Below the pieces are notes generated by a model. It had not been told where the DNA came from, ran no database searches, and saw only the letters and a program-made list of their open reading frames with translations. From positions 1 through 36,688 of the forward strand of contig JARIGM010000024.1 in assembly GCA_029288865.1 (NCBI GenBank): a stretch of DNA of 36,688 nucleotides, written 5' to 3'. This document shows, in pieces, positions 22,515 through 33,436 of this stretch; within the stretch, counting starts at the first letter, position 1; every line of letters begins with the position of its first letter. The position numbers and the translations under genes are program-made. Source of the stretch: Candidatus Kaiserbacteria bacterium (GTDB taxonomy: Bacteria > Patescibacteriota > Minisyncoccia > Phycocordibacterales > Phycocordibacteraceae).

Positions 22515-22627
22515 CACAGAACAGGTAATGCGGTGAGGGAGGCTCTCGGAGCGCGACGGCGAGAGAGCGAGCCGATTTTTCAGCAGAAAAATACGGCGTA
22601 CTCCCGAGACGCATTACCTGTTCTGTG
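22515..22627. repeat. Structured 113-bp inverted repeat between nusB-Nudix and rnc
   Basis: CACAGAACAGGTAATGCG (22515-22532) is a perfect 18-nt inverted match of CGCATTACCTGTTCTGTG (22610-22627); further GGGAG/CTCCC, CTCTCG/CGAGAG and ATTTTTC-AGCA-GAAAAAT stems inside. Confidence 0.93.
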
Positions 22628-23516
22628 ACGCGTGGTCGAGAAGCACTTGCACACCCGCCGTCACGATCGGCAGCATGTCGTCATAGAAGTTGAGGTCGAG
22701 AATATCCGGCAAACGGAACCATTTCGCGTCATCAAGACCGCCGCTCTTCTTGAGCTCAAGCTGTTCGAATGGCGCTTCCACCAAGAAGAAATACACGTGC
22801 TTACGGACTTTTCCCTTCTCAGGGTGCGATGCGATGTATTCGTTCTCACCCACTTTCTCCCCGACCGTGCACGAGAGTCCGAGTTCTTCCTTCACCACGC
22901 GCGTCACACCTGCTTGCGGCGTTGGATCCTTTTCTATATGCCCCTTCGAGAGCGTCCAGTGTCCAAACACATCATGCACGAGCGCGAGATAATACTGGCC
23001 TTCGTGCTTCGCATAAATGATTGCCCCGCCGAGCTTTTCCATCGGCAAGTCTTCGCGACGAACGCGCTCCTTCTTTCCATGCTCGTCCTTGCCGGGCTCA
23101 CCCATTTCTTTGTATACGGCACCGAGTACTCCATTTATGAATCGGCCTGACGAATCGCCGCCGAATATCTTCGCGAGTTCTATCGCCTCATTTATAGCTA
23201 CTTTGGCTGGCACCTGCGTGCGGTCTGCGAAGAGCAGCTCGAAAAGACCGATGCGGAGTATGTTTCGGTCTACGGGTGCGATCTTCGCGAGCGGCCAATC
23301 AGGCGCTGCTTTTTCTATCACGAGGTCGAGGTCTGCGCGTTTTGCGATGACCCCATCGAGGAGTTGCTCCATAAAAGCCTTGTCCGTATCTTCCCCGCCG
23401 AATTCATCGACGTTGCGCGCAAGGATCTCCTTGGTCGCAGAATCTTCGGCATGCGTTGTATCCCACTCGAAAAGAGTTTGAAGGACGACGGATCGGGCAA
23501 GGTGGCGGTTGGCCAT
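22614..23516 (-). CDS. nusB: NusB antitermination factor fused to a Nudix-like domain
   Basis: N-terminal NusB (ARSVVLQTLFEWD...DRNILRIGLFELLFADRTQVPAKVAINEAIELAKIFGGDSSGRFINGVLGAVYKE); C-terminal Nudix-like (GGAIIYAKHEGQYYLALVHDVFGHWTLSKGHIEKDPTPQAGVTRVVKEELGLSC). Confidence 0.93.
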   Translation of the reverse strand: MANRHLARSVVLQTLFEWDTTHAEDSATKEILARNVDEFGGEDTDKAFMEQLLDGVIAKRADLDLVIEKAAPDWPLAKIAPVDRNILRIGLFELLFADRTQVPAKVAINEAIELAKIFGGDSSGRFINGVLGAVYKEMGEPGKDEHGKKERVRREDLPMEKLGGAIIYAKHEGQYYLALVHDVFGHWTLSKGHIEKDPTPQAGVTRVVKEELGLSCTVGEKVGENEYIASHPEKGKVRKHVYFFLVEAPFEQLELKKSGGLDDAKWFRLPDILDLNFYDDMLPIVTAGVQVLLDHASQNR

Positions 23517-23652: not shown

Positions 23653-23721
23653 GCCGGTGGACTGGTGCGATGCCAACCCTCATCAAGTTGCGCATCGAGG
23701 GTCCGATTCCCTCCACCGGCA
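23653..23721 (+). ncRNA. tRNA-like fold, copy 1 (D-armless, function unknown)
   Basis: 7-bp acceptor GCCGGTG/CACCGGC, 5-bp T-arm GAGGG-TCCGATT-CCCTC, extended central hairpin GATGC..CAAC-CCTCATCAA-GTTG-C-GCATC. No D-arm, no CCA. Confidence 0.6.
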
Positions 23722-23731
23722 TAGCGACCGT

Positions 23732-23760
23732 TGACAGGAATAAATCTGAAGGAGTATAAT
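23732..23760 (+). promoter_or_regulatory. Consensus-like promoter in element copy 1
   Basis: ACCG-TTGACA-N18-TATAAT; expected +1 coincides with GATGAGGG at 23767. Block conserved in copy 2. Confidence 0.75.
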
Positions 23761-23766
23761 TATCTC

Positions 23767-23835
23767 GATGAGGGTTGGCTCGCACTAGCGATGCGCGACG
23801 AAAACAAAAGAGCCGCAAGCGGCTCTTTTGTTTTT
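23767..23835 (+). ncRNA. Predicted short RNA, copy 1, complementary to the tRNA-like hairpin
   Basis: Starts 7 nt after the -10 and ends in a terminator; GATGAGGGTTGGC-TCGCACTAG and CGATGCGCGAC pair with 23662-23684 and 23687-23697. Confidence 0.6.
23801..23835. terminator. Terminator of short RNA copy 1 (near-perfect palindrome)
   Basis: AAAACAAAAGAGCCGC-AA-GCGGCTCTTTTGTTTT. Confidence 0.9.
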
Positions 23836-28704: not shown

Positions 28705-28773
28705 GCCGGTGGTTTGGTACAAGAAATACCCTCATCAAGTATTCTCTTGAGGGTTCGATTCCCTCCGCCGGCA
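28705..28773 (+). ncRNA. tRNA-like fold, copy 2 (D-armless, function unknown)
   Basis: Acceptor GCCGGTG/CGCCGGC (one G-U), T-arm GAGGG-TTCGATT-CCCTC, same 69-nt length and same CCTCATCAA loop as copy 1. Confidence 0.6.
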
Positions 28774-28782
28774 TAGTTACCG

Positions 28783-28812
28783 TTGACAAGAGAAAACTTG
28801 AAGGAGTATACT
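28783..28812 (+). promoter_or_regulatory. Consensus-like promoter in element copy 2
   Basis: ACCG-TTGACA-N18-TATACT with conserved TTGAAGGAG in the spacer; expected +1 at GATGAGGG, 28819. Confidence 0.75.
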
Positions 28813-28818
28813 TTTGTC

Positions 28819-28886
28819 GATGAGGGTGTTTCTTGTGTAAGAAACGAGAGGATACGGAAAGGAGCCGCGAAAGCGGCTTTTTTCTT
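28819..28886 (+). ncRNA. Predicted short RNA, copy 2, complementary to the tRNA-like hairpin
   Basis: GATGAGGGTGTTTCTTGTGT pairs with 28717-28736 and CGAGAGGATAC pairs with 28739-28749; ends with AGCCGC-GAAA-GCGGCT-TTTTT terminator. Confidence 0.6.
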
Positions 28887-28928
28887 TTACTATTCTGCTC
28901 TCCTGTCTCCCGTGATATGCTTTCAGAT

Positions 28929-30689
28929 ATGCCTAGCTCAGAGAATTCTATTGCCGAAAAACGCCACACGCTCGCTCATTTACTCGCTGCCGCCGTCCTC
29001 GAACGTTACCCCCACGCAAAACCCACCATCGGTCCTGCCGTAGATAACGGCTTCTATTACGACTTCGATTTCTCAGGAGGAAATGGCGCTCCCGGCGAAG
29101 CCGAACTCTCCCAACTCGAAGAATCCATGCGCGAGATGCTCGCTTCTTGGAACGCGATGACTGGCACCGAAGTGTCCGAAAAAGATGCGCGCGACCGATT
29201 CTCTTCGAATCCGTTCAAGCTCGAGATTATCGACGGCATCGTCGCCGCAGGCGATCCGATTACCCTCTACACCGCAGGCGATTTCACCGACCTCTGCCGC
29301 GGCGGCCACAGCGAGCATCCGAATAAGGACATCAAGCCTGACTCCTTCACGCTCGACCGCGTTGCAGGTGCATACTGGCGCGGCGACGAGACCAAGCCGA
29401 TGCTCACCCGCATCTACGGCCTGGCCTTCGACACTAAAGATGAGCTTGATGCATTCCAAGCACAACGCGAAGAAGCGAAGAAGCGCGATCACCGAAAACT
29501 CGGCAAAGAGCTCGACCTTTTCACCTTTAGCGACCTTGTTGGTGCTGGCCTTCCCCTCTACACGCCGAAAGGCACAATCATGCGCGATATGCTCGCAGGA
29601 TTCTCGGAAGAGCTGCAGCGCTCATACGGATTCCAAAAGGTATGGATTCCGCATATCACGAAGATCGATTTGTATAAGAAGTCCGGTCATTGGGACAAGT
29701 TCGGTGACGAACTCTTTTTGGTAAAGAGCCAGGAGTCATCCGACGAGTTTGCACTCAAGCCGATGAACTGTCCGCATCACACGCAGATCTACGCAAGCAA
29801 GCCCCGCTCGTACCGCGATCTCCCGCTCCGCTTCATGGAGACAACAACCTGTTATCGGGACGAAAAGACCGGCGAACTGTCAGGCCTCACTCGTGTCCGC
29901 TCTCTCACCCAAGACGACGCACACGTGTTCTGTCGCATGGACCAGATCGAACAAGAATTCGAGAACATCATGACGATGATCAAGAAGATGTACGGCACGC
30001 TCGGGCTCTCGTTCAAGGCTCGCCTTTCCTTCTCTGATCCTGCGAATCCCGCTGGATACCTTGGCGAGAGAAGCCAATGGGATGAGGCAGAAGCAATTCT
30101 TGAAAAGATAGCAAAGAAACTAGATATCCAATACTTCATTGCGCAGGGCGAAGCGGCATTCTATGGTCCGAAGATCGACGTTATGGTGACTGATGCGATC
30201 GGCCGCGAATGGCAGTGCGCAACCGAGCAGCTCGACTTCGTCCAGCCGATGCGCTTCGAACTCGAATATACGGCAGAAGATGGTACCAAGAAGACCCCGG
30301 TCATGATCCACAAGGCACTCCTCGGTACTATCGACCGCTTCCTTGGCGTGTTCATCGAACACACTGCGGGTAACTTCCCGACATGGCTCGCGCCAGTACA
30401 GGTGAAAGTCGTGACAGTCTCAGACAAGCAAATGGAATACGGGCAGCAGGTCCTGCAGGAGCTTCTCGCAGCTGGCGTGCGCGCTGAACTCGATACTGCA
30501 AGCGAATCTATGGGTAAGAAGATCCGCAATGCCAAGACTGAGAAAGTCCCGTACGTGCTCGTGATCGGTGACAAGGAAGTCGAGGACAAGACCGTGACCG
30601 TCGAGAGTCGCGATGCCGGCAAGCTCGATCCCCTTCCTGTCTCTGACTTCATTCAGAAGACTCTCGCCGAAATCTCCACCCGCTCCTAG
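28929..30689 (+). CDS. thrS: Threonyl-tRNA synthetase lacking the N-terminal TGS domain
   Basis: Begins in the editing domain (RHTLAHLLAAAVLERYPHAKPTIGPAVDNGFYYDF); PMNCPHHTQIY; TRVRSLTQDDAHVFCR; GTIDRFLGVFIEH. Alternative ATG at 28917. Confidence 0.95.
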   Translation: MPSSENSIAEKRHTLAHLLAAAVLERYPHAKPTIGPAVDNGFYYDFDFSGGNGAPGEAELSQLEESMREMLASWNAMTGTEVSEKDARDRFSSNPFKLEIIDGIVAAGDPITLYTAGDFTDLCRGGHSEHPNKDIKPDSFTLDRVAGAYWRGDETKPMLTRIYGLAFDTKDELDAFQAQREEAKKRDHRKLGKELDLFTFSDLVGAGLPLYTPKGTIMRDMLAGFSEELQRSYGFQKVWIPHITKIDLYKKSGHWDKFGDELFLVKSQESSDEFALKPMNCPHHTQIYASKPRSYRDLPLRFMETTTCYRDEKTGELSGLTRVRSLTQDDAHVFCRMDQIEQEFENIMTMIKKMYGTLGLSFKARLSFSDPANPAGYLGERSQWDEAEAILEKIAKKLDIQYFIAQGEAAFYGPKIDVMVTDAIGREWQCATEQLDFVQPMRFELEYTAEDGTKKTPVMIHKALLGTIDRFLGVFIEHTAGNFPTWLAPVQVKVVTVSDKQMEYGQQVLQELLAAGVRAELDTASESMGKKIRNAKTEKVPYVLVIGDKEVEDKTVTVESRDAGKLDPLPVSDFIQKTLAEISTRS

Positions 30690-30747
30690 AAAATAAAAAG
30701 CCCCAGGTATCCCGTCATTTAAGGATACCTGGGGCTTTTTATTTTCT
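30688..30747. terminator. Bidirectional terminator with a 25-bp perfect stem
   Basis: AGAAAATAAAAAGCCCCAGGTATCC - 10-nt loop - GGATACCTGGGGCTTTTTATTTTCT between convergent genes. Confidence 0.95.
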
Positions 30748-33436
30748 AACCTTCGATAATCGCAAGCGCGCGTGTCAGCGCGAGCTTCGCACCAGTTACG
30801 CCAACCGAGTAGCTTGAGTCGACTGCGTTCGTAAGCGCAGCAACCAGGCGTTCGAGGAAGTTCGTTGCGCAACCGCGAGTAATCTCAGCGATCTCGGGGT
30901 GTACGTTCGAACCTTCAACGCGAGCGCGGTATGCATCGTCGAGCGCGCAAACAACCTGTGAGAGGAATGCTTCTGCATCACCTCCTTCGCGAATGATATG
31001 GCGGATAGTGCCGAAGACGGTATCGCGTTCGTCATTCAAGAGCGCAGCGATGAAGTCACGGACGTCAGCTGAAAGCGGTGCTGCAACCGGAGCAGGGCGG
31101 TTCGTCATCGGAGCTGGTGCATGTGCTGCAGGAGCTGCATGCTCGTGAGCAGGTGCCGGAGCGTGCGCTGCGGGTATTGCGTCTTCCTGATGGAAGTTTC
31201 CAACCTGCCAGGTTGCGCCAGACTCGCGAGAGAGACCCTTCACGATGTCATCGATGGTAAGCGTCTCGCCTTGCGGAGCGAATGCGCGTGCTGCTGCAGC
31301 CGGAGCTGCCGCTGCCATCGCAGGAGCTGCATGATGTGCTGACGCTGGCGGATGTGCAGGACCATGTGCAGGAGCGTGAGCTACAGTTGGGCCGTGCGCC
31401 GCTGGAGCATGAGCTGCAGCAAGATGCGCGACACCTGCCGCATGAGCGCCAGCTGAGGCAACTGCGCCATGCGCTGCCGAGTGATTCAACACCTGATCCA
31501 CACCTGCACCAAAGAGGTGCATCTTCACAGCAAAGAATGGAACGAGCTTGAAGAGGATGAGGTACGCAGCTGCGACACACCAGAGGACGAGGAAGGTCCA
31601 GTAGATGATAGTACCGACAGGACCGAGGTCAAGACCGGTGTATGGGATCTGCGAGAGATACACGTATGCAGCTGCTGGAGCGCCCTGGATGATCTGACCA
31701 GAGACATCGTGACCTCCACCTCCGTGGCCGCCTGAGCCACCACCGCCTCCGCCCCCTCCACCACCGCCTGGGTGCTGGGTTGTAATGGTGACGCTACATG
31801 CGCCATTCGCTGGAGCGTTCGGTACCGTGGCCGTATAGGTAACCGAATCACTTGGCGGCGTAACCGTAATTGATCCATGATCAACCGGAGTTACATTGCC
31901 GATATTGTTGTCGATCGAGACTGCACTTGCGTTCTGTGTCGTCCACGTCAGAGTTACTGACTCGCCTGGATTGATGACGGACTTGTCCGCATTGAGCGAA
32001 ATACACTCTGGGCTTGAAGTGACGACTGGAGGCTTCACCTTCACGGTCACCTGACAGTTCGAATTCGTAATGCTGCCATTCACCTTCTCGACATACGTCG
32101 TGTCGGTTGCCGGGTTGACCACCTTCGAACCTTGATTGAGCGGAGTGACTGCGTCACCATTGATAGTGACCGTTGTCGCGTTCTTGGTCTGCCATGCAAG
32201 CGTTACCGCTTCGCCTGGATTGATCTCAGTCTTGTCTGCAGTAAGTGCGACACACTCTGGTGTTGGCGGAGGAGTCGTCTTGATGACGACGCTTGCCTGA
32301 CAGGTGACGGTTCCGCTCGTACCATTAACAGTTGCTGTATACGTAGTGTCCTTCGTCGGACGAACCGTTGTAGAACCCTGGGCTACTGGAGTAACCGGAC
32401 CGACTCCCTGATCAATAGATATGGATGTCGCATGCACCGTCTTCCATGAAAGCGTGACGGTATCACCCGGCTGTATCTCCGTCTTATCCGCCTTCAAATA
32501 TTCACAGAGCGGTGGCGTCGGAACAACAGGGACGACTGGCGTGACTGGTACGACCGGAACTACTGGCACTGAAGGAGTGATGTCAGTACAACACGGCGGA
32601 AGATTGTTGTTTCCAGGAGGAGTAACGATCGGGGTCGGAGTTGTGACGTCAGTACAACATGGTGGAAGGTCATTATTACCCTTGTTTGGCTGACCAGTGA
32701 CCGTCACGACCGTTGTCGCAGGCGTGGTGACACTATCAGGCGTGCTCTGATTGGTACAACACGGCGGAAGATTGTTGTTCCCTTTTGTTGGTGCCGTGAC
32801 GGTTACTTCGACAGGATCGGAATTGTTTGTACTTGGAAGGTCCTTAGAATGATCTGGTTTTGAACCGACCACGGTCACATTAGTGGTACCTGTATCAGTT
32901 GTGGTGAGCAAACTTCCCGTTGTCTTGGTGTTATCTGGCGAGTCCGTGTTGCCATGGACAACCACTGTGGTTGGAACTTCAGGAGTCACAGGCGTAACAG
33001 GAACAGCTGCAGGGGTTGATGGTGCTGGGGTCGGATCAGCATGAACAGTAACGTTGGTGGTGCCGTCGCTCGGTGCAGTACTTGGAGCAGGGGTTGAAGC
33101 AGTGGTTCCCGAGTTAGAACCCGAATTCGAAGAATTGGTGTTCTGACTCGAATCGGTTGAAGCAGGAGCAGACGGTACGGTGACCGGGGTCACTGGTACG
33201 ACCGGCACGATCGGCGTAATTGGTACGACCACTGGCACGGGCGGGATGACTGGCGGCGGAGCGACGACGGGCACTACCACTGGCGGTACGACGAATGCGA
33301 GCGCTTGACTCGGCGTGGTCATACCCGTTCCGAATGCGATACTCGATCCCAAAAGAACGGTAGCGAGTACGGCAAAGACTCCGATCATGATCGGATGCTT
33401 CTCGGCGTATTGCGTTGTATTTTTATATGCTGACAT
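30746..33436 (-). CDS. Large membrane-anchored surface protein: Pro/Val/Thr-rich region, three NNxLPPCCT repeats, three Ig-like repeats, Gly-rich linker, IPYTG-TM segment, long cytoplasmic tail
   Basis: Start MSAYKNTTQYAEKHPIMIG at 33436 with AGGAGC SD; three copies of 'C..L.ADK..I.PG..VTL.W.T..A..V.I'; QIPYTGLDLGPVGTIIYWTFLVLWCVAAAYLILFKLVPFF. Confidence 0.85.
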   Translation of the reverse strand: MSAYKNTTQYAEKHPIMIGVFAVLATVLLGSSIAFGTGMTTPSQALAFVVPPVVVPVVAPPPVIPPVPVVVPITPIVPVVPVTPVTVPSAPASTDSSQNTNSSNSGSNSGTTASTPAPSTAPSDGTTNVTVHADPTPAPSTPAAVPVTPVTPEVPTTVVVHGNTDSPDNTKTTGSLLTTTDTGTTNVTVVGSKPDHSKDLPSTNNSDPVEVTVTAPTKGNNNLPPCCTNQSTPDSVTTPATTVVTVTGQPNKGNNDLPPCCTDVTTPTPIVTPPGNNNLPPCCTDITPSVPVVPVVPVTPVVPVVPTPPLCEYLKADKTEIQPGDTVTLSWKTVHATSISIDQGVGPVTPVAQGSTTVRPTKDTTYTATVNGTSGTVTCQASVVIKTTPPPTPECVALTADKTEINPGEAVTLAWQTKNATTVTINGDAVTPLNQGSKVVNPATDTTYVEKVNGSITNSNCQVTVKVKPPVVTSSPECISLNADKSVINPGESVTLTWTTQNASAVSIDNNIGNVTPVDHGSITVTPPSDSVTYTATVPNAPANGACSVTITTQHPGGGGGGGGGGGSGGHGGGGHDVSGQIIQGAPAAAYVYLSQIPYTGLDLGPVGTIIYWTFLVLWCVAAAYLILFKLVPFFAVKMHLFGAGVDQVLNHSAAHGAVASAGAHAAGVAHLAAAHAPAAHGPTVAHAPAHGPAHPPASAHHAAPAMAAAAPAAAARAFAPQGETLTIDDIVKGLSRESGATWQVGNFHQEDAIPAAHAPAPAHEHAAPAAHAPAPMTNRPAPVAAPLSADVRDFIAALLNDERDTVFGTIRHIIREGGDAEAFLSQVVCALDDAYRARVEGSNVHPEIAEITRGCATNFLERLVAALTNAVDSSYSVGVTGAKLALTRALAIIEG

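Follow-up and report, generated by a model that had tools for sequence, protein, structure and literature searches.

A candidate two-gene RNA module in Patescibacteria: a tRNA-like RNA beside its own co-diversifying antisense RNA

The closest described pairs of adjacent small RNAs are the type VIII toxin-antitoxin pairs SdsR/RyeA and CreT/CreA (PMC10767807, PMC8501985), and some antisense RNAs start to pair when their unpaired 5' tail contacts a U-turn loop of the target (PMC4485353). Here we describe a locus at which a tRNA-like RNA (TLD) is followed by a small RNA complementary to it. Because both RNAs change sequence together in dozens of lineages, the comparison points to an undescribed system in which one RNA would control another. 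We know of no system that pairs a tRNA-like RNA with a dedicated, co-diversifying antisense RNA; we found no dedicated family for this module in Rfam 15 and, in the open-access literature, no paper describing a module of this kind.

Two RNA genes in the window

The window, by which we mean the whole stretch of DNA analyzed here (36,688 nucleotides), holds two copies of the module, both on the forward strand. In copy 2, the TLD (28705-28773, +) matched covariance model R1 at 85.9 bits, and all of its helices covary in relatives. It consists of a 7-bp acceptor stem (28705-28711/28766-28772), a D-loop-like segment GTTTGGTA without a D-stem (28712-28719), an arm stem of about 10 bp with one bulged C (28720-28729/28739-28749), the arm loop CCTCATCAA (28730-28738), and a 5-bp T-arm with TTCGATT (28749-28765), with a discriminator A at 28773. 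Ten bases after the TLD lies a predicted antisense promoter (28783-28812, +; score 11/12) composed of TTGACA (28783-28788), 18 nt, and TATACT (28807-28812). The antisense RNA, of about 70 nt (28819-28888, +), was recognized by its pairing and predicted fold; we infer its start from the promoter and its end from the terminator. It carries segments a' (28819-28838) and b' (28845-28855) and an intrinsic terminator hairpin (approximately 28857-28883), and in its predicted fold the 5' tail GATGAGG is unpaired and is followed by a hairpin and then by the terminator hairpin. The single-sequence fold of the copy 2 TLD favors a different pairing; the arm appears in the folds of copies 1 and 3 and is also supported by covariation among relatives.

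A preliminary description of this DNA had proposed that the two RNAs of copy 2 are complementary in two stretches, and checking each pair bore this out. Helix a joins 28717-28736 to 28819-28838 (20/20 positions paired, 3 of them G-U), helix b joins 28739-28749 to 28845-28855 (11/11 positions paired, 2 G-U), and the AA at 28737-28738 is left unpaired between them. As the helices cross and their linker is only 2 nt, it is unlikely that both are complete at once. The 117 bases that follow the TLD (28705-28773) can pair with it in a helix of at most 20 bp; across 2000 dinucleotide shuffles of this downstream segment, the longest helix averaged 9.9 bp with a maximum of 19, and 0/2000 reached 20. 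Copy 1 has the same plan with another arm: a TLD at 23653-23721 (+; R1, 80.1 bits), an antisense promoter at 23731-23760 (+; score 12/12) with TTGACA (23731-23736), 18 nt, and TATAAT (23755-23760), and an antisense RNA followed by a terminator (23767-23835, +, with putative ends). Its a' (23767-23779, +) pairs with 23672-23684 over 13 bp and its b' (23789-23799, +) with 23687-23697 over 11 bp, so the arm bases do differ between the copies, as had been claimed.

On this window ARAGORN called 0 tRNA genes, and neither copy 2 nor the window matched Rfam at the gathering cut-off; the most relevant matches below the cut-off were mascRNA (26 bits) and tRNA (20.8 bits, cut-off 29). Given these results, the missing D-stem, the loop of 8-9 nt, and the length of 67-69 nt, we rejected an ordinary tRNA as the identity of the TLD. 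Copy 1 faces rpmF, which lies on the other strand, and several further modules face a convergent gene; a T-box or leader attenuator was rejected on these grounds, as was a thrS leader or T-box for copy 2, given that no codirectional gene lies behind copy 1 and others. Elsewhere in the window, a NusB domain and then a NUDIX domain are encoded in a single reading frame (22614-23516), apparently a fusion. A perfect 26-nt inverted repeat (30687-30748), probably a two-way terminator, lies at the end of the threonyl-tRNA synthetase gene.

The genome that contains the window (G000; 842 kb in 36 contigs) has seven TLD copies, and it also carries an ordinary tmRNA and an apparently full tRNA set. Loops vary within it: on contig C27 the loop reads ACTTGGTATC, with AGGATACCAAGT in the neighboring RNA. 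Three full copies have CCTCATCAA in common, and copies within one genome often share the loop or the acceptor while their arms differ, which hints at gene conversion or at selection for distinct partners. Immediately upstream of the tRNA-like gene of the third copy (L006, G000:C3) lies an inverted repeat, CCTCATCA...TGATGAGG, in which the loop and seed sequence of this module recur.

Copy-specific pairing across Patescibacteria

Covariance models R1, R2, and R3 were built successively from 11, 32, and 55 sequences. In total we collected 73 TLDs, 7 in G000 and the rest in relatives that span about 20 Patescibacteria families; the named carriers are Parcubacteria and Candidatus Kaiserbacteria, and carrier genomes are small, mostly about 0.4-1.4 Mb. 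R3 matched 13 of 106 genomes in the family, one of which (G092, a 74-nt match) was not counted, and 14 of 379 across the phylum; nearly all ordinary tRNAs drop out with this model, and the class II sequences (see below) in its building set could favor similar ones. For R2, matching genomes numbered 9 of 397 at the level of the order and 8 of 384 at that of the class. These genome frequencies are minimum values, as stricter filters apply to searches of more than 40 genomes. A BLAST search of limited sensitivity for homologues on phages, viral contigs, and plasmids returned none, and a viral origin was rejected because 4 viral pattern matches were tRNA-type sequences without the module.

The general plan of the TLD is an acceptor stem, a T-arm, a stemless D-loop, and a hypervariable arm with an 8-9-nt loop. 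Its length is 67-69 nt in 64/73, and every copy has an arm of about 37 nt. In an alignment of 55 sequences, 94.7% of cells were paired and 20/20 pairs had changes on both sides. The covariation score of this alignment was 0.68, compared with 0.25 for shuffles and 0.12-0.19 for slid partners; the alignment was fitted to the model and its numbers lean that way, the slid control being the fairer comparison. What is conserved is the T-arm, the acceptor, and a UYRNYA loop, in which U (64/73) is followed by Y (72/73) and R (73/73), with an invariant A three bases past R. We did not adopt the loop as a working anticodon (Y-Y-R-N-Y-A read as G34-N35-Y36-A37), because A34 occurs in 18/73, C33 in 18/73, and the loops have 8-9 nt. 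Nor would the TLDs replace missing tRNAs, as G000 has Thr GGT, Asp GTC, Val GAC, Ile GAT, Gly GCC, and Ser GCT.

The acceptor stems fall into two classes. All 23 class II TLDs have G1:C72, G2:C71, G3:U70, and A73, with pairs 4-7 variable. The G3:U70 pair is the alanine identity element and is also present in tmRNA, and class II TLDs are probably alanine-accepting. The 49 class I TLDs, both window copies among them, have Y3:R70, a variable discriminator, and no alanine signature; one TLD (L007) fits neither class. Within class I, GGU loops favor a U73 discriminator (15/19 vs 12/30, p = 0.009), and the tRNA-Thr of G000 has U73. An encoded CCA follows the discriminator in 11/73 TLDs (p = 2 × 10−8 vs 1/64, with relatedness ignored), and a CCA-ended, tRNA-like fate of the TLD is likely.

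An antisense partner was found for 66-67 of the 73 TLDs. Its 5' end pairs with the loop and the 5' stem strand of the TLD (helix a); helix b, which is often present, joins a segment further along to the 3' stem strand. When 73 arms were searched against 73 downstream regions, the cognate region was best for 46 and among the top three for 60, with a median score of 38 for cognate pairs vs 20. Across 67 anchored cognate pairs and 15 positions of helix a, the paired fraction was 0.90, compared with 0.58 for swapped partners (maximum of 500 swaps, 0.63); the anchor is set on each cognate pair and so brings some cognate bias, whereas the all-vs-all search is free and uses no anchor. With one module per family (20 families), the fractions were 0.94 for cognate and 0.64 for swapped partners. 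Cells changed on both sides numbered 364, against 110 expected, and a variable loop position shows all four Watson-Crick types (U-A 31, G-C 19, A-U 12, C-G 3). When pairing energies are compared within a genome, the cognate partner gives the strongest value of its row in most cases, not all. The view that the differing arms reflect real, selected base pairing, first proposed from the two window copies, is thus upheld by the difference between cognate and swapped partners.

Helix b is weaker than helix a. It reaches at least 8 bp in 30/67 modules, against about 6 expected after partner swap, its longest run is 7.6 in cognate and 5.6 in swapped pairs, and it is short or missing in more than half of the modules. 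The skipped AA followed by a second helix of 11 bp, as noted in the preliminary description, holds in the window; as a general rule it fails, since it applies only to part of the subgroup with the CCTCATCAA loop. Helix b is also explained by the predicted hairpin of the short RNA itself, a mirror of the tRNA-like stem. In class II, complementarity often continues into the D-loop. Apart from complementarity to its own TLD, the antisense RNA has no conserved element.

We rejected the proposal that the TLD and the short RNA form one concatenated structure. In three modules (L198, L201, and L203) the partner is on the opposite strand and faces the TLD across a shared terminator, and the two genes of L107 are separated by a terminator; a single folded transcript is ruled out by these arrangements, and the opposite-strand partner in one lineage argues for two separate transcripts. 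The antisense promoter is a near-consensus sigma70 promoter (average score 10.3/12) found in the same place in nearly all modules, and a' starts about 3-10 nt after the -10 box, which makes a' the 5' end. This tail is unpaired in the predicted folds of most tested copies. Upstream of the TLDs we found no recognizable sigma70 promoter, with scores like those of shuffled sequence. Ordinary tRNA genes of G000 score equally low, and we therefore dropped a weak TLD promoter as a toxin-antitoxin hallmark. Taken at the level of sequence, these comparisons establish two genes in separate predicted transcription units with copy-specific, co-evolving pairing.

Some modules have conserved gene neighborhoods across genomes, yet their arms, loops, and partners are unrelated; arm and partner are replaced together. 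Unrelated modules occupy the same site in L090/L098 (flanking proteins 93% and 87% identical), L088/L093 (80%, 86%), L089/L092 (90%, 68%), L094/L096 (one flank, 89%), and, at grpE-dnaK, L006/L100 (67%, 81%), while L093/L099 are close orthologues with small changes. We found no consistent enzyme gene near the modules. Eight modules from four families have, within about 75-190 bases of the TLD, a gene encoding an RNA-binding protein of the RRM type (the one protein tested matched Pfam RRM_1), upstream in L007, L089, L092, L126, L133, and L139 and downstream in L198 and L203; this could be a protein partner or merely a shared site. Two modules of different families, L008 (G000:C27) and L136, face the end of a gyrA-like gene at 135 and 136 bases, and both have a TTGGTA loop. 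No partner is visible near five TLDs (L091, L095, L097, L103, and L170), and in L095, L097, and L091 the partnerless gene stands directly before an open reading frame (no Pfam match for L095, the one tested).

Possible roles of the module

The module could serve as a toxin-antitoxin system, regulate translation, or provide an aminoacyl donor. The explanation that we favor, and hold to be somewhat more probable than its being wrong, is a two-gene RNA module in which a dedicated antisense RNA would restrain a tRNA mimic, as a toxin/antitoxin-like pair or a self-contained switch. The first gene would encode a tRNA mimic without a D-stem, the arm of which would replace the stacked D and anticodon stems and expose a U-turn-type loop. 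The second would encode a small antisense RNA, made from a strong promoter, whose unpaired 5' end would dock on this loop. Strand exchange would then unzip the arm, its 5' strand passing to a' and its 3' strand to b', and in many class II copies pairing would extend into the D-loop. Pairing may inactivate the mimic or mark it for degradation, and a freed, CCA-ended TLD may interfere with or modify translation. We infer a negative effect of the antisense RNA on the TLD. The TLD is the likelier effector and the antisense RNA the likelier inhibitor, because the conserved parts lie in the TLD and the antisense RNA is conserved only in its complementarity. Toxin-antitoxin-like use of the module is plausible; a TLD that is always toxic is less likely, because orphan TLDs without a visible partner exist. 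Against this explanation we count that the window copies are class I and lack the alanine signature, that helix b is missing or short in over half of the modules, and that the TLDs lack a recognizable sigma70 promoter (though ordinary tRNA genes are alike in this); against a toxin-antitoxin role specifically, that the modules sit at fixed sites and none were found on phages or plasmids, unlike many toxin-antitoxin pairs. A stronger and more tentative version, which we regard as possible but doubtful, is an RNA-only conflict or addiction module of hypervariable, translation-acting tRNA mimics, each checked by its own antisense RNA. If so, one class would be alanine-charged with loops that never match an alanine codon, and the replacement of pair specificity at fixed sites would keep copies orthogonal. 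Retention of up to seven copies in such small genomes points to a real benefit or to addiction.

Other explanations share parts of this evidence. The alanine signature of class II (23/23), the encoded CCA, and the preference of class I GGU loops for the U73 that the G000 tRNA-Thr also has would suit a TLD that is a dedicated aminoacyl donor, for example of alanine or threonine for non-ribosomal use, with the antisense RNA setting its level in a benign arrangement without addiction. We think this unlikely, as a simple donor would hardly account for a loop that is hypervariable and matched by its own antisense RNA, for the presence of several copies in one genome, or for the turnover at fixed sites, and no consistent enzyme gene is nearby. 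The same acceptor identity, together with the T-loop and CCA, would be superfluous if the tRNA-like RNA were a stable decoy (sponge) for a short RNA that regulates its own mRNA targets. A sponge would profit from the stability of tRNA-like folds and from pairing as specific and strong as that found here, but the short RNA has no conserved sequence beyond the match to its own TLD, which makes a conserved mRNA target unlikely, and we give this reading little credence. Compensatory change would also maintain pairing in any two-piece RNA, and the antisense RNA might complete the tRNA-like RNA in trans to form one active molecule. Several observations make this quite improbable: the pairing destroys the covarying arm of the TLD and in class II often reaches the D-loop, orphan TLDs exist, helix b is not universal, and nothing but complementarity is conserved in the antisense RNA. 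The probability that the complementarity arose by chance, or that copy 2 is a decayed tRNA with a duplicated fragment and no functional module, is close to nil. The failure of ARAGORN and Rfam to call copy 2 would fit decay, but covariation, seen in every TLD helix, already contradicts this reading, and the shuffles, the compensatory changes across about 20 families, and the near-constant length also speak against it.

Comparison with described RNA systems

Annotation pipelines will mostly miss the module, or label a copy as a tRNA or tmRNA; with the covariance model and the partner-swap test, the family is now directly searchable. The likeness to tRNA (RF00005) lies in the acceptor, the T-arm with TTCGATT, the GG of the D-loop, and a loop near the anticodon position, and one TLD (L122) scores 32.5 bits with this family. 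The tRNA-like domain of tmRNA (RF00023) likewise combines an acceptor and T-arm with a stemless D-loop, and class II shares its G3:U70 and A73; one class II TLD, L198, has a score of 47.1 bits, right at the Rfam cut-off. Unlike tmRNA, the TLD has no tag-coding part and its arm is closed by an 8-9-nt loop. We rejected tmRNA as its identity on the basis of the arms of about 37 nt in all copies and the true tmRNA elsewhere in G000.

Type VIII pairs also consist of two adjacent small RNAs on the same or opposite strands, one apparently counteracting the other. By adjacency and specific complementarity the predicted module resembles this layout, and we do not claim membership. CreA works via a CRISPR effector, whereas the RNAs here would pair directly; SdsR and RyeA overlap on opposite strands, and the presumed effector here is tRNA-shaped. 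Type I toxin-antitoxin systems (hok/sok) were rejected, as the target here is a 69-nt structured RNA whose arm is hypervariable, and the alignment shows no evident reading frame common to the copies. In its pairing, the module is closer to Sok/hok and to pMV158 RNAII, in which an antisense RNA with an unpaired 5' tail, a hairpin, and a terminator meets a target loop with a U-turn pattern. By sequence criteria, the copies have both a YUNR-type loop and a complementary 5' tail predicted to be unpaired. Here, however, the target is neither an mRNA nor complementary to the antisense gene as a whole; the stretches that pair are arranged in tandem, with their order crossed, and each copy of the pair diversifies separately. 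The TLD loops may also resemble the RNAI loops of plasmid ColE1 (UUGGUA). What is new is the module and its likely effector, combined with a pairing mechanism that resembles that of known antisense RNAs.
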